Source: Myxococcales bacterium (lineage in GTDB: Bacteria; Myxococcota_A; Polyangia; Polyangiales; Houyiibacteriaceae). Taken from it: a stretch of DNA of 64,000 nt. The first letter of the stretch is position 1. Each line of letters opens with the position of its first letter. The translations under genes were made by a program, and so were the position numbers. The stretch spans positions 1 through 64,000 of the forward strand of contig JAHBWH010000002.1 in assembly GCA_019637115.1 (NCBI GenBank), in the 5' to 3' direction. Below the pieces are notes generated by a model. That model saw only the letters and a list, made by a program, of their open reading frames with translations. It searched no databases and was not told the origin of the DNA. This document shows, in pieces, positions 24,380 to 32,498 of this stretch.

Positions 24380-27048
24380 AGATCAAGTCGAGGGCGCGCA
24401 TTCCGTATTCTGCGGTGTGCGCGTTCGTCGCTTCGGCCCTGCAGCTCACGACGCCCCTCGCCCCCGCGGTCGCGCAGCCCGTCGCCCCGACCCTGCTCGA
24501 GCCCGCCCCCGCTCTCCCCGCCGTCGCGCCCGACGGTGCACACGTCGAGCTCTTCCTCCAGATCGAGGCGGACGGCGCATTGAGCGCCGTCGACGTCGAC
24601 GCGATTAGCGCCCCAGACGCAGCGCGGGCGTGGGTCGAGGCCCGCGCGATCGAGGCCGCACGCGCGCTACGCTTCGCGCCCGCGCGGGTCGACGGGGAGC
24701 CCGTCGCGGTCCGAATCCGTTTCGTCGTCACCTTCCCCGCGCCCGAGCCTGGAGTCGCGGCGCAGGACGACCGGGAACCCCGAGCCGACACGGCTACTGC
24801 GCGCGAGGATCCGGAGGCCGCCGCGCCGAGCGATGCGAGCGCGAGCGAGCGGAACGAGCGGAACGAGCGGAACGAGCGGAACGAGCGGAACGAGGCGAGC
24901 GAGCCGACCGACGACGACGATGACGAAGACGCCCTCGGCGACGGCCCCGAGGGCCCCGGCTTCGGCGCGGAGGCCGTCGTCGATCCGAACCGACGCACAC
25001 GCGAGGCGACGAGCGCGAGCGATCTCGACATCGAGGTCGGCGGCCTCCGCCGGGTCCCGCGCATGACGGCGCAGTCCTTCCTCACGCTCGCGCCCGGCAT
25101 GCTCCTCACGCAGCACGGCGCCGAGGGCCACGCGATGTCGATGTTCCTGCGGGGCTTCGACGCCGCCGAGGGCGAAGACCTCGAGCTCCTCGTCGACGGC
25201 CTGCCGCTCAACGAGATCTCGAACGCGCACGGGCACGGCTACGCCGACATGACCTTCGTCATCCCGCAGGCCATCCGCGGCGTGCGGATGATCCAAGGGC
25301 CCTTCGATCCGATGCAGGGCGACTTCGCGACCGCGGGCACCGCGGAGCTCGTCCTCGGCTTCCCCGAGGATCAACGCGGGGTGCACCTCTCGCTCGGCTA
25401 CGGCCGCTTCGGCGAGACGCGCCTCTTCTCGGCGTGGGCGCCAGCGGGCGAGCGCGAGGGGACCTTCGGCGCGTTCGCCTTCAACCGCGGCGACGGCTTC
25501 GGCCCGAACCGCGCGTTCCGCAACGGCTCGGTGATGCTGCGTTACGAGCACGCGCTCGACGCGAAGACGATCGTGCACGCGCTCGGCTTCGGGGCGCTCG
25601 CGAGCTTCCGCAGCGCCGGCGTGGTCCGCGAGGACGACGTGCGGCTCGGGCGCATGAGCAACTGCGGCCCGAGCCCGGAGGAGCAGCTCTTCTGCTTCTA
25701 CGATCCCAACCAAGGCGGCAGCAGCGGCCGCGGCGGGGCGACGCTCGGCCTGCGCCGTCAGACGGGCAACCGCCGCCTCGAGCTCGCGCTCGGCGCGCAA
25801 CGCCGCAACCTCCGCCTGCAGGAGAACTTCACGGGCTTCGTCACCGACCCGCGCACGGACGGCGGCCCTCAGCGCGGCGACAACCTCGATCAGCGCTACG
25901 AGGCGACCACGCTCTTCGCGCGGGGACGCTACGCGCTTCGCGCGCTGGCCTTCGGGCAACGGCAGGATCTCGAGGTCGGCATGGTCCTGCGCCACGACGC
26001 CGCCGAGACGCTCGCCGACCGCCGCCGCGACCGCCTCGCCGTGCCCTACCGAACGGAGTTCGATCGCGCGGTGCGCCAGACGCACGTCGGCGCGTACCTG
26101 CGGGGCGACGTCCGACCGACCGCGTGGCTCTCGCTGCTCGGTGGCGCGCGCGTCGACTACTTCGGCTTCGACGTCGTCGACCGCAATTTCCCCCCGATGG
26201 ACGCGATCGGAGAGCGCCTCCCGCGCGCGGCCTATTCGGCGCACGGGGTCGCCGTCTCGCCTCGCGGCACCCTCCGGCTGCGGCTCCTCGAGGGCCTCGA
26301 CTGGATCACCGCCTTCGGCCTCGGCGCGCGCTCGAGCGACGCGGCCGCCCTCTCGGAGGCCGAGCTCGCGCCCTTCGCGCGGGTCACGGCGCTCGAGTCG
26401 GGCCTCGTCTTCGAGCGGGAGCTGGCGGGCGTCGCCCTCGAAGGCCGCCTCACGGCGTTCGCGACGCGCATCTCGCAGGACCTCGTCTTCGACCCCACGG
26501 CGGGCCGCAACTCGGTGCTCGGCCCGTCGGCGCGCTCGGGCGCGGCGCTGCAGGCACGCGCGCGCATCGGCGACTGGCTCGACGTCCAAGGCAGCGTGAC
26601 GTACACGCGCGGCCACCTGCAGACGGCGGACGCGGGGACCTTCGCGCTCTTCGACGGCCCCCGCCTCCCCTTCGTGCCGGCGTGGCTCGCGCGCCTCGAC
26701 GCCGTCGCGCGCCACGAGCTCGACATCGGCGGGCAGCCCTTCTCCGGCAGCGCGGCGCTCGGCTTCACGCACGTCGGCAAGCGCCCCCTCCCCTTCGCGC
26801 AGCTCGCCGACCCCTACACGCTCGTCGATCTCGCGCTCTCGGTCGGCTGGCGCACGTACGAGCTCGGCCTGACGCTGCAGAACCTCTTCGACGCGCGCTA
26901 CCGCAGCACCGAGCTGCATTACGCCTCGAACTTCCGCGACCCCTCGCTGCCGGCCTCGATGACGCCGACGCGCCACTACTCCGTCGGTGCGCCCCGGACC
27001 TTCCTGGTCACGCTGAGCGGTCGCTTCGCTGGCGAGCCGGAGCCCTGA
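24376..27048 (+). CDS. TonB-dependent outer-membrane receptor with N-terminal TonB-C-like domain, probable zinc/metal uptake
   Basis: An 890-residue receptor with a signal peptide (residues 1-34, ending in PAVAQ). Residues 45-120 resemble a TonB C-terminal-type domain (FLQIEADGALSAVDV and ALRFAPARVDGEPVAVRIRF). A charged linker follows with five ERN repeats and an Asp/Glu run, then the plug (RRVPRMTAQSFLTLAPGM, then FLRGFDAAEGEDLELLVDGL and HGHGY) and a 22-strand-type barrel ending with an aromatic residue region. A TonB-like domain fused ahead of a receptor is found in some myxobacteria and Bacteroidetes. ATG at 24361 or 24355 is also possible; 24376 gives the best signal peptide. The stop overlaps the next gene (TGATG). 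Confidence 0.82.
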   Translation: MKIKSRARIPYSAVCAFVASALQLTTPLAPAVAQPVAPTLLEPAPALPAVAPDGAHVELFLQIEADGALSAVDVDAISAPDAARAWVEARAIEAARALRFAPARVDGEPVAVRIRFVVTFPAPEPGVAAQDDREPRADTATAREDPEAAAPSDASASERNERNERNERNERNEASEPTDDDDDEDALGDGPEGPGFGAEAVVDPNRRTREATSASDLDIEVGGLRRVPRMTAQSFLTLAPGMLLTQHGAEGHAMSMFLRGFDAAEGEDLELLVDGLPLNEISNAHGHGYADMTFVIPQAIRGVRMIQGPFDPMQGDFATAGTAELVLGFPEDQRGVHLSLGYGRFGETRLFSAWAPAGEREGTFGAFAFNRGDGFGPNRAFRNGSVMLRYEHALDAKTIVHALGFGALASFRSAGVVREDDVRLGRMSNCGPSPEEQLFCFYDPNQGGSSGRGGATLGLRRQTGNRRLELALGAQRRNLRLQENFTGFVTDPRTDGGPQRGDNLDQRYEATTLFARGRYALRALAFGQRQDLEVGMVLRHDAAETLADRRRDRLAVPYRTEFDRAVRQTHVGAYLRGDVRPTAWLSLLGGARVDYFGFDVVDRNFPPMDAIGERLPRAAYSAHGVAVSPRGTLRLRLLEGLDWITAFGLGARSSDAAALSEAELAPFARVTALESGLVFERELAGVALEGRLTAFATRISQDLVFDPTAGRNSVLGPSARSGAALQARARIGDWLDVQGSVTYTRGHLQTADAGTFALFDGPRLPFVPAWLARLDAVARHELDIGGQPFSGSAALGFTHVGKRPLPFAQLADPYTLVDLALSVGWRTYELGLTLQNLFDARYRSTELHYASNFRDPSLPASMTPTRHYSVGAPRTFLVTLSGRFAGEPEP
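24850..24894 (+). repeat. 9-bp tandem repeat encoding RNE units
   Basis: Five perfect copies of CGGAACGAG lie in frame in the TonB-receptor gene, giving the charged linker RNERNERNERNERNE between the TonB-like domain and the plug. Confidence 0.95.
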
Positions 27049-28795: not shown

Positions 28796-29902
28796 GTGCG
28801 TCGTCTCACCGCCATCGGCCTCGTGGCCGCGCTCGCTTCGCTCGCGGCGGCCTCTGGCGCCTCGTTCGGGGCGGCCCAGCCCTCCCCCGAGGTGCGAGAG
28901 CGCCACGACCGCGCCCGCACCCGCACGCCCGAAGCGACGGAGGCGGATCGCTCAGAGGCTCCAAGCGCGCCGACCTTCGTCATCCCGACGAGCACCCGCA
29001 GCTCTTCCGTGGGGCTGACCAACCGCGGCCGACTCTTGCGCGCCGCCAGGGTGCGACCGAGCGCGGCCGTGCACGTGCGCAACCCCTCGCACGCGTTCGG
29101 CACCGAGGAGATGGTCGCGCTCGTCCAATGGGCCGCCGAGCAGGTCCAGCGCGAGCACCCCGGCGCGCGCCTCAACCTCGGCGACATCTCGCGCGAGCGA
29201 GGCGGCGTCCTGCGGCCGCACCGCTCCCACCGCGCTGGGCGCGACGCCGACCTCGGCTTCTACCTGAAGGACGCCGAGACGGGCGCACCCTTCGACGCCC
29301 AGCACTTCATCGCGCTACCCCGGGGGCGTCCCGGCACCGACCGCCGGGGCGGCACCTACGACTTCGACGACGCCCGCAACTGGTCGCTCGTGGCCGCGCT
29401 CGTCGGCCAGGACGCGGTGCCGGTCCAGTACATCATGGTCATCGCGCCGCTCAAGGAGCGCCTCCTCGCCGAGGGCCGCCGCCGCGGCGCGTCCGAGGAG
29501 CTGCTCGCGCGGGTGGACGCGGTCGTCGGTCCCCAGCGGACCGGGCGCGGCCCCGCCGCCCTCTTCGGCACGCACGACTCGCACTTCCACATCCGCATCT
29601 TCTGCGCCGACGACGATCGCCCGCGCTGCGTCGACACCGCGCCCTACCACCCCTGGGTCGGGCGACGCGCGGGCCCGCCCCCCAGCCGCGCGACGCGCTC
29701 GCGGGGCACGTCGATGCGCAGCTCGACGCGGATGCGCGGGGTCTCGACGCGCGGCACCTCCTCGATGCGCGGCACGCGCGGGAGCTCCTCGACGCGCGGC
29801 ACCTCCTCGATGCGCGGCACGCGCGGGAGCTCCTCGACGCGCGGGAGCTCGTCGATGCGGAGCAGCTCCTCGATGCGCAGCGTCGCCGCCGGACGCCGCT
29901 GA
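28796..29902 (+). CDS. MepA-like penicillin-insensitive murein endopeptidase with Arg/Ser repeat tail
   Basis: A 368-residue exported protein (signal peptide residues 1-27). The peptidase M74 region spans residues 55-285: metal ligands are expected in RPHRSHRAGRDADLGF and in the HDSHFHIRI segment near the end, matching MepA, which cuts D-Ala-mDAP crosslinks in peptidoglycan in the periplasm. After CVDTAPYHPWVG comes a tail of about 70 residues, rich in Arg, Ser, Thr, Met and Gly, built from a 15-residue unit. The tail is strongly basic and may bind the anionic wall or LPS, but the same DNA is also open in other frames, so it could be a recent repeat expansion. The start is GTG 28796. Confidence 0.82.
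   Translation: MRRLTAIGLVAALASLAAASGASFGAAQPSPEVRERHDRARTRTPEATEADRSEAPSAPTFVIPTSTRSSSVGLTNRGRLLRAARVRPSAAVHVRNPSHAFGTEEMVALVQWAAEQVQREHPGARLNLGDISRERGGVLRPHRSHRAGRDADLGFYLKDAETGAPFDAQHFIALPRGRPGTDRRGGTYDFDDARNWSLVAALVGQDAVPVQYIMVIAPLKERLLAEGRRRGASEELLARVDAVVGPQRTGRGPAALFGTHDSHFHIRIFCADDDRPRCVDTAPYHPWVGRRAGPPPSRATRSRGTSMRSSTRMRGVSTRGTSSMRGTRGSSSTRGTSSMRGTRGSSSTRGSSSMRSSSSMRSVAAGRR
29746..29880 (+). repeat. 45-bp tandem repeat at the 3' end of the MepA-like gene
   Basis: Two perfect 45-bp copies (29746-29790 and 29791-29835) are followed by degenerate shorter units to about 29880. They encode the Arg/Ser-rich tail (GTSSMRGTRGSSSTR as the unit). Confidence 0.85.
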
Positions 29903-29951: not shown

Positions 29952-31079
29952 TCAATAGATGCCCGGGAAGATCCGGAAGCGAGCGCGCTCCGCGTAGCGC
30001 GACCACAGCTCCCCATACTTCGCGCGACAGCGGCGATCGTCTCGCCCGGCGCGCTGCACGAGCAGGATGACGAGCGAGAGCGGGAGCAGCCACGGCCACG
30101 GCGTGGAGAAGCCCGCGCAGAGCGCGAACGACACGTAGACGCCGATCTCGCCCGTGTAGTTCACCTTCCGCCCTATCCCCCACCATCCGCTCACCAAGAG
30201 CCGCCCCCCGAGCAGCTCGGGCGCCTTGCCCCAGATCGGCCGGGACGGGTCCCGCTTGAAGCGATCCTTCTGCCAGTTCGCTTCGCGGAAGACCCAATGA
30301 CTCACGACGTGGAAGAGCGTGATCAGCCCGTAGCCCCACCAGGGCCAGGGCTGATGCGCGCCCCCCTCGAAGCCGCGATCGAGCACCCACCAGCCGCAGA
30401 GGCTGTAGAGGAAAGGGACGTAGACGAGATCCCCCCAGACGAGCATGAAGCCGAGGCGCTCTGCGAGGATGTCCCACGTGGAGAGCATGAAGCGCTCGGC
30501 GACGTAGTGCGTGAAGAGGTAGCTCCAGACGAACGCCTGGTAGAGCCACATCTCCGGCGTCACGACGCCGTACTGGTCATGCTGGGCGAAGGCGAACGCG
30601 GAGACGATGACCGCCAACCCGAGCAGGCTCGGCTGGTAGAGGAACATCTTGAGATCCACCCCCGCGAGGCGAGGGTTGAGCTCGACGCCGAACCAGAGAT
30701 CGTGCAACGCGGGCGGGAGCGGCGAGGCCTCGCGGCGCGCGTCGAGGTCTGGCGTCCGCCGCCGCCCCCGCACGAAGAGGTAGAGGGTGCCCCCGAAGGC
30801 GAGCACGTTCGCGACGACGAAGAGGCTCCAGAAGTGGCTCAGCAGCGGCGCGAGCGAGACGCCCCCGAGCGCGGCGCCGACGACGCCGGCCAGCGTGAGC
30901 AAGTAGAGGGGGAAGCCGGTGAGGCGATAGCGCTCTCGCGTCCCCTCGGGTGTCTCGAAGCCGTCGACGTAGGGGATGGGCAAGAGACGTGCGAGCACGA
31001 AGAGGGTGAGCACGAAGGCACCCACCCAGAGGCTCGCGCGCCCGAGCGACTCGGGCGTGACCGGGAGCAGCTCGATCAA
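29952..31079 (-). CDS. ERG4/ERG24-family sterol reductase (delta-14 type-like)
   Basis: A 375-residue polytopic membrane protein of the ERG4/ERG24 family, NADPH-dependent reductases of sterol double bonds. The diagnostic C-terminal block is clear: LLVSGWWGIGRKVNYTGE, followed by RCRAKYGELWSRYAERARFRIFPGIY, the shape found in sterol C14- and C24(28)-reductases. The upstream motif YVPFLYSLCGWWV also fits. About eight to ten hydrophobic helices are present. Sterol synthesis is known in some myxobacteria. TTG at 31079 overlaps the stop of the upstream gene (TTGA); a second TTG at 31118 is possible. It is coupled to a CFA-type methyltransferase. Which bond is reduced cannot be said from sequence. 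Confidence 0.85.
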   Translation of the reverse strand: MIELLPVTPESLGRASLWVGAFVLTLFVLARLLPIPYVDGFETPEGTRERYRLTGFPLYLLTLAGVVGAALGGVSLAPLLSHFWSLFVVANVLAFGGTLYLFVRGRRRTPDLDARREASPLPPALHDLWFGVELNPRLAGVDLKMFLYQPSLLGLAVIVSAFAFAQHDQYGVVTPEMWLYQAFVWSYLFTHYVAERFMLSTWDILAERLGFMLVWGDLVYVPFLYSLCGWWVLDRGFEGGAHQPWPWWGYGLITLFHVVSHWVFREANWQKDRFKRDPSRPIWGKAPELLGGRLLVSGWWGIGRKVNYTGEIGVYVSFALCAGFSTPWPWLLPLSLVILLVQRAGRDDRRCRAKYGELWSRYAERARFRIFPGIY

Positions 31080-31933
31080 TCGATGCGACGCAGCTTCATC
31101 TGCACGTCGCTCGACCAATGCGCGTCGAACGCGCGCACGCAGGTGTCGAGGTAGCGCTCGTAGTCCACGAAGACCTGGTCACCCCAGCGCTCGCGGATCG
31201 TCGCCTCGTGCAGCCGCAGGCGGCGCAGCCACTCGCCCGTCGTCTTGCCGTACGACTCGCGCTGCGTTCGCACCTCGAGGATCTCCCAGCGCGGGTTCAC
31301 GGCCGCGACGAGCTCCTCGAGGCGCGGGTTGAGGCCACCCGGGAAGATCACGTCGGCGGTGAAGGCGAGGTCCGCGAGATCCTTGCGCGTGCGGGGCACG
31401 CGGTTGCGGAGAATCGCCTGGAAGCCGAAGCACGCGCCGGGCTTCACCCACTCCGCCACCTTCGTGAAGTAGGTGCGGTAGAGTTCGATGGCCATGCCCT
31501 TGCGGCTCTGCTCGGGCGAGCAGAGGTGGTCGATCATCTCGATCGAGACGAGCGCGTCGTACTTCTCCTCGGGGACGTACTCCGCGTAGTCCTTCACGAT
31601 CGCTTTGACGCCGGGCAGCTTCTTCTGATCGTGGATCCAGTCGCACTGCGCGGTCGAGAGCGTGATCCCGTGCGCCCGCTTCACGTTGCGCTCGCGGACT
31701 AGGTACTCGAGCATCGCGCCCCACCCGCACCCGATGTCGAGCACGAGGCTCTCGGGGGTGATCTCGGCGTAGTCGGCGAGGATGCGGCACTTCTGGATCT
31801 GCGCCTGCTCCAGCGTCTCGTTTCCGGTGAGGTAGCTCCCGGAGGTGTAGTGCATGTTCTCGTCGAGCCAGAGCTCGAAGAACTCGTTCGAGACGTCGTA
31901 GGAGACCTCGATGTCAGCCTGGGTGCTCGTCAT
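31076..31933 (-). CDS. Cyclopropane-fatty-acid-synthase-type SAM methyltransferase
   Basis: A 285-residue soluble methyltransferase of the CFA/mycolic-acid-modifying family. Typical features are YDVSNEFFELWLDENMHYT near the N-terminus, the SAM motif LVLDIGCGWGAMLEYL at about residue 66, GITLS and FTADVIFPGG. These enzymes methylate unsaturated lipid chains or related acceptors. Translation into the sterol-reductase gene by overlap suggests a shared pathway, for example lipid or sterol side-chain methylation. It is first in the operon, and no Shine-Dalgarno is evident at the ATG 31933. Substrate is not determinable here. Confidence 0.85.
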   Translation of the reverse strand: MTSTQADIEVSYDVSNEFFELWLDENMHYTSGSYLTGNETLEQAQIQKCRILADYAEITPESLVLDIGCGWGAMLEYLVRERNVKRAHGITLSTAQCDWIHDQKKLPGVKAIVKDYAEYVPEEKYDALVSIEMIDHLCSPEQSRKGMAIELYRTYFTKVAEWVKPGACFGFQAILRNRVPRTRKDLADLAFTADVIFPGGLNPRLEELVAAVNPRWEILEVRTQRESYGKTTGEWLRRLRLHEATIRERWGDQVFVDYERYLDTCVRAFDAHWSSDVQMKLRRID

Positions 31934-32105: not shown

Positions 32106-32498
32106 ATGTCCGTCCCCGAGTCGACCGTCGAGGCGGTGGTGCGCGAGGTCTCCGAGCGGATGAGCGACCCGTCCTACGGGCAGCTCGCGGTGGGCACCTT
32201 CGTCGCCGCCCAGCCCCACGTGGCGCGCTTCCTCTCGGCCGCAGGCGCGAAGCTCGGCGCCGACGTCGTCGTACACGCGGCGTTTCACGCGGAGGTGCTC
32301 CGGGAGTGCCTCGAGCGCCACCGCGGCGCGCCGCTGCGCACCGCCAGCTTCCGCGATCTCGACGACGCGGCGGGGGACGACGCCGCGCGGCGCTTCGGCC
32401 AGAAGGAGCCGGCGCTCGCGAGCTACCTCGCGTCCAACGTCGACGAGATCCCGCTCCGCGATCTGCTGGCGCACGTCGGGCTGACGCTCAGCCGCTGA
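32106..32498 (+). CDS. Hypothetical helical protein
   Basis: A 130-residue soluble protein, probably mostly helical, with no family I recognise. It starts MSVPESTVEAVVREVSERM and has a central TFVAAQPHVARFLSAAGAKLGADVVVHAAFHAEVLREC stretch; there is no signal peptide or membrane segment. The ATG at 32106 follows GAGAGAGGG closely. It is divergent from the CFA-type gene and convergent with meaB. Codon use and GC are like those of its neighbours, which supports a real gene. Confidence 0.65.
   Translation: MSVPESTVEAVVREVSERMSDPSYGQLAVGTFVAAQPHVARFLSAAGAKLGADVVVHAAFHAEVLRECLERHRGAPLRTASFRDLDDAAGDDAARRFGQKEPALASYLASNVDEIPLRDLLAHVGLTLSR

Follow-up and report, generated by a model that had tools for sequence, protein, structure and literature searches.

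The window analyzed here, a stretch of 64,000 nucleotides from a Myxococcales assembly, contains a gene of the ERG4/ERG24 family whose product is a genuine sterol-pathway enzyme and part of a near-complete sterol pathway. The product is best read as a divergent C-14 sterol reductase, and its exact job in this genome we infer from what is observed of its homology and fold, its catalytic residues, the pathway genes, and from co-occurrence and synteny. It is likely that this NADPH-dependent enzyme serves as the C-14 reductase of a sterol pathway, probably in parallel with an enzyme of another type, 8,14-Bsr, and that only position links it to the overlapping methyltransferase gene. In the proposed scheme, CYP51 would leave an 8,14-diene sterol as the substrate of the reductase, which would saturate the 14(15) double bond, with a proton going to C15 and the hydride of NADPH to C14, to give a Delta8 sterol. 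The host is probably an uncultured myxobacterium. The features discussed are the following:

29952..31079, minus strand: ERG4/ERG24-family sterol reductase gene (PF01222, homology to 4QUV, fold, residues)
31076..31933, minus strand: gene of a SAM methyltransferase with the CMAS/CFA fold (PF02353, alignment, fold match)
31076..31079, minus strand: TTGA, in which the start of one gene overlaps the stop of the other (sequence)

A reductase of the ERG4/ERG24 family

The reductase gene runs on the minus strand from a TTG start codon at 31079 to a stop at 29952 and encodes 375 amino acids. The product matches PF01222 with 226 bits (E 7e-67, curated cut-off 27) over positions 76-432 of the 432-position profile, which places it in the family; a search of NCBIfam gave no match. 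The top match in the PDB is 4QUV, the Delta14-sterol reductase MaSR1 (E 5e-57), which is also the sole structural match above noise of the AlphaFold model (mean pLDDT 86, TM 0.79). The ERG4/ERG24-like gene announced in the earlier note is therefore present. Its description as normally eukaryotic is right only in part; the family includes eukaryotic enzymes, and a homologue is also present in 72 of the 377 genomes that represent the phylum. No other PF01222 member occurs in the window genome. The TTG start gains support from L112, the nearest relative: its reductase starts with ATG at the equivalent residue (MLELLPI, against MIELLPV in the window). Since the split from L112 the gene has evolved under purifying selection (dN/dS 0.24). 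The L112 reductase (L112:2063-3181) has an in-frame TAG near the C-terminus, at an otherwise invariant Tyr, which may be a sign of early decay or, in a metagenome assembly, a sequencing error.

MaSR1 of Methylotuvimicrobium (Methylomicrobium) alcaliphilum shares the Pfam family and the fold with the window reductase. In the alignment, Y187, D203, N307 and R343 correspond to MaSR1 Y241, D257, N359 and R395, residues whose roles have been described (PMC12489058, PMC4951196); the catalytic Tyr (Y187) and NADPH-site Asn and Arg (N307, R343) expected of a C-14 reductase are thus in place. The two proteins differ in that they are only about 35% identical and belong to different clades, the catalytic D363 of MaSR1 being replaced by Glu311, a conservative change that is invariant in the clade of the window protein, and the His of the RHxNYxGD motif by Lys throughout this clade, so that the window motif reads RKxNYTGE.

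The closest homologues of the window reductase (at least 45% identity), here called clade A, form a separate group with full support in the tree, on a long stem and apart from MaSR1. The eukaryotic members of PF01222 (ERG24, ERG4, LBR and DHCR7) are about 27-29% identical to the window reductase, and the tree sets clade A apart from them; the yeast ERG4, yeast ERG24 and human DHCR7 sequences behind this comparison are approximate, and their placement is a lead only. The window protein has a fairly long branch (0.52) and retains all but 2 of the columns that are invariant across the other 18 members compared. To our knowledge, no member of clade A has been assayed.

Clade A occurs in 21 of the 377 genomes, together with CYP51 in every one of them, as expected of a C-14 reductase, and with oxidosqualene cyclase (OSC) in 20 (p 6e-8 in a Fisher test with the remaining tested genomes as reference, relatedness ignored). 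The sterol methyltransferase (SMT) was found in just six, including the window genome; the co-occurrence with sterol C-24 methyltransferase expected of an ERG4-type C-24(28) reductase is therefore not seen across clade A, and this speaks against an action on the 24(28) bond. Within the phylum, the clade A gene is near CYP51 in 9 loci and adjoins OSC in 3. A wider set of 80 clade A loci, from assemblies of many phyla and nearly all of them named, shows CYP51 (51 loci), SdmB (39), SdmA (37) and OSC (34) within 6 kb, against 17 loci for SMT. In many of these loci, including those of other phyla, the reductase gene lies between SdmA and CYP51, and the genes often follow one another as SdmB, SdmA, reductase, CYP51, squalene epoxidase and OSC.

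Among the carriers of clade A are Enhygromyxa salina, Plesiocystis pacifica, Minicystis rosea and Nannocystis. Zymosterol is produced by E. salina and P. pacifica (PMC4919349), so that C-14 reduction is needed in these organisms, and cholesterol is made by E. salina and M. rosea (PMC10202945, PMC12004948). Some of the named carrier species have a second PF01222 gene; the C-14 step was assigned to clade A and not to this second copy because of the synteny and the genomes with a single copy.

The sterol pathway and a second candidate for the CYP51 product

Squalene epoxidase and oxidosqualene cyclase, which the earlier note proposed to look for, were both found on contig C2 of the window genome, in a sterol cluster that also contains HMG-CoA reductase, SdmA, SdmB and a sterol methyltransferase carrying Sterol_MT_C (PF08498). 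The lack of a cyclase, which the earlier note had named as part of what would refute its idea, is thus not what the genome shows. The epoxidase is fused to squalene synthase in a single open reading frame of 1067 residues (L035:14899-18102, minus strand). The cyclase scores 641 bits against the oxidosqualene cyclase model TIGR03463 and 199 against hopene cyclase; its score does not reach the curated cut-off of 851, and the same holds for nearly all cyclases found in the phylum, those of E. salina and P. pacifica among them. CYP51 is located on contig C77, and its match to the enzyme of M. capsulatus scores 471 bits. An EBP-type C-8 isomerase was not found in the window genome and is present in three close relatives. 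Because the cyclase, the epoxidase and the rest of the pathway are encoded in the genome, a sterol product of the host is very likely; the link to sterols drawn in the earlier note is supported by these genes and by orthologues of the reductase in sterol gene clusters. The reductase would act within a pathway comprising the squalene synthase/epoxidase fusion, OSC, CYP51, SdmA/SdmB and the C-24 sterol methyltransferase.

A homologue of 8,14-Bsr is encoded directly downstream of CYP51 on contig C77 (L212:6688-7329). The known 8,14-Bsr is an NTF2-type protein that uses the same CYP51 product as proposed for the reductase, but it has an unrelated soluble fold and makes 8(14)-sterols (PMC13277303). 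The homologue has 213 residues, and each of the six residues probed in the pocket of 8,14-Bsr (Y37, Y43, Y78, Y80, D133 and D136; PMC13277303) recurs in it, the offset being 12 in every case; a Pfam search assigned it to no family. It is about 60% identical to the copy in the Sandaracinus sp. NAT131 assembly (G206, locus L115), and the 8,14-Bsr of this strain has been shown to be active (PMC13277303). The NAT131 assembly is probably identical with the marine Sandaracinus assembly for which two active SMTs have been reported (PMC10070321).

The 8,14-Bsr gene stands beside CYP51 in six genomes of the window family (the window genome G000, G182, G370, G206, G027 and G012, the loci of the other five being L215, L216, L217, L218 and L220), an arrangement absent from the other clade A loci examined. 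There are thus two candidates for one intermediate, as in the genus Methylotuvimicrobium, which has 8,14-Bsr besides a C-14 reductase (PMC13277303). In the window genome the reductase and 8,14-Bsr may share one substrate, 8,14-Bsr probably working in parallel and converting it into 8(14)-sterols, and the reductase may supply a Delta8 branch alongside, for which the three relatives with EBP have a C-8 isomerase. OSC, CYP51, SMT and 8,14-Bsr are present in G027 without any match to the reductase, which is thus dispensable in close kin. The argument that the reductase is the only C-14 reductase candidate in the genome was dropped as proof when 8,14-Bsr was found beside CYP51. The presence of 8,14-Bsr, with no EBP found, lowers the confidence in a C-14 role, and repurposing of the reductase was kept as a rival explanation.

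The overlapping methyltransferase gene

The methyltransferase gene runs on the minus strand from an ATG at 31933 to a stop at 31076 and encodes 285 amino acids. A PF02353 match of 173 bits identifies the catalytic domain of the cyclopropane synthases, the N-terminal lipid-binding domain being absent; the structural matches are CFAS, MmaA2 and UmaA. Like the reductase gene, it has diverged from its L112 counterpart under purifying selection (dN/dS 0.12). The product shares the fold and PF02353 with CFA synthases and mycolic acid cyclopropane synthases, but it is only 26-28% identical to them, and in an alignment with CmaA2, L. acidophilus CFAS and A. aeolicus CFAS it has S31, D135 and Q172 at the positions of Cys, Glu and His, with Y228 kept. 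The bicarbonate ligands of cyclopropane synthases are Glu, His and Tyr (PMC11387697, PMC9821293), so that Asp135, Gln172 and Tyr228 stand in place of the ligand set of a cyclopropane fatty acid synthase; the Glu and His ligands are missing in all aligned members of the methyltransferase family. The loss of two ligands implies that the label CFA-type, used in the earlier note, is apt for the fold and the Pfam family and not for the chemistry.

The possibility that this protein is the sterol methyltransferase of the genome was rejected, since the true SMT with Sterol_MT_C sits in the sterol cluster; that domain, by which a sterol C-24 methyltransferase would be recognized, is absent from the window protein. 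The methyltransferase family is very conserved and tight, with members in 83 of the 377 genomes at 55% identity or more, followed by a gap down to 37%. In G372, a gene row on the minus strand (L106:6151-10220) consists of a fatty-acyl-AMP ligase, a methyltransferase of the same family, an ACP and an acyl-ACP desaturase. From this company, an acyl chain is the best guess for the substrate. No account of CFA synthases within lipid clusters of myxobacteria was found in a literature search.

The overlap with a lipid methyltransferase gene is exactly as the earlier note described it, the TTG start of the reductase occupying 31079-31077 and the TGA stop of the methyltransferase 31078-31076, and the two genes are presumably co-transcribed. 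Among the loci compared, this overlap is seen in the window genome only; the two genes are separated by 22 nt in L115 and by about 85 nt in L112, and the distance grows to about 1.7 kb in L113 and about 4 kb in L114. Both genes lie on one strand, at most about 4 kb apart, in the six family genomes found with both. The linkage is confined to the window family, with variable spacing and order; in one relative the order is reversed and a small gene separates the two. G372, G172 and G353 have both genes unlinked. The methyltransferase is present in 7 of the 21 clade A genomes (co-occurrence p 0.15, not significant, relatedness ignored) and shows an odds ratio of 0.95 with OSC over 75 tested genomes, relatedness again ignored. 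An unrelated gene, that of the M74 murein endopeptidase, is also kept in the neighbourhood of the pair, which makes the linkage look like general synteny.

An ACP is found near the pair, and an acyl-ACP desaturase near it in three relatives; the latter is absent from the window genome. A shared fatty-acid pathway of the pair with ACP and desaturase was rejected on this absence and on the occurrence of the set away from the reductase elsewhere. The earlier note had suggested that the two genes may work as a pair in an undescribed modification. This part of it is not supported, since the methyltransferase is widespread and independent of the sterol genes, the adjacency is variable and limited to one family, and a separate SMT exists. 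Most likely, the overlapping methyltransferase is a neighbour and not a partner of the reductase; it would be a separate enzyme, probably of acyl lipids, tied to the reductase by position only. Caution is advisable in deriving a joint function from a single start/stop overlap.

Competing readings and wider relevance

It appears doubtful that the CYP51 product is passed to 8,14-Bsr and the reductase thereby freed for 24-methylene sterols or, together with the methyltransferase, for a methyl-branched or methylene lipid. An ERG4-like shift of the reductase in this lineage to another sterol bond, the likeliest being the 24(28)-methylene that SMT introduces, with 8,14-Bsr taking the CYP51 product, is unlikely in its own right. 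Such a shift would fit the SMT present in all four genomes that combine a clade A reductase with 8,14-Bsr beside CYP51, the fairly long branch of the window protein, and the Lys and Thr of RKxNYTGE, which also occur in yeast ERG4; it fits poorly with the 15 clade A genomes without SMT, with G027 and G012, which have SMT and no clade A gene, with the frequency of CYP51 over SMT beside the reductase in the 80 loci, and with the retention of nearly all invariant columns.

That the two overlapping genes form one lipid pathway, in which the methyltransferase attaches a methyl or methylene group to a sterol or an unsaturated acyl chain for the reductase to saturate the product, is considered improbable. 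The BfaB/BfaA (TmsB/TmsA) pair of 10-methyl fatty acids is a model for such a pathway. The start/stop overlap, the closeness of the genes in six family genomes, the ACP and desaturase nearby and the G372 gene row all speak for it, but the methyltransferase family occurs mostly without the reductase, the genes are unlinked in three genomes, the desaturase of the relatives is missing from the window genome, and the M74 endopeptidase gene has stayed nearby as well. Still more improbable is a redundant reductase that is decaying after 8,14-Bsr was gained with a methanotroph-type CYP51; the premature TAG of L112 and the lack of the reductase in G027 agree with decay, whereas the open frame, the catalytic residues and the dN/dS of the window gene speak against it, and the TAG could be a sequencing error.

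Under the preferred reading, that of a C-14 reductase probably parallel to 8,14-Bsr, both the enzyme (largely) and the pathway are of known kind, and a joint new reaction is unsupported. The current work adds one more myxobacterium, probably uncultured, whose near-complete sterol pathway includes C-24 methylation and both of the known bacterial routes for the CYP51 product. The ERG24-like reductases of clade A are a large group, spread over many phyla and Heimdallarchaeota assemblies, that bears on the removal of Delta14 in sterol-making bacteria. These reductases and their coexistence with 8,14-Bsr deserve the attention of specialists.

Clade A homologues of 44-46% identity were observed in assemblies of Candidatus Heimdallarchaeota (L134, L140, L141, L142, L143, L153 and L154). 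No CYP51 or OSC lies within 6 kb of them, and no EBP was found in the three that were searched; they could be misbinned or represent a sterol-related Asgard gene. In the window itself, a protein of 130 residues without a Pfam family is encoded at 32106-32498 on the plus strand, and similar small proteins are found beside the methyltransferase or reductase in L040 and L117. Two short repeats were also seen, a Ser/Arg-rich one at 29700-29900, in the C-terminus of the M74 endopeptidase open reading frame, and one of the peptide NER at 24750-24930, in a TonB-receptor-like open reading frame.
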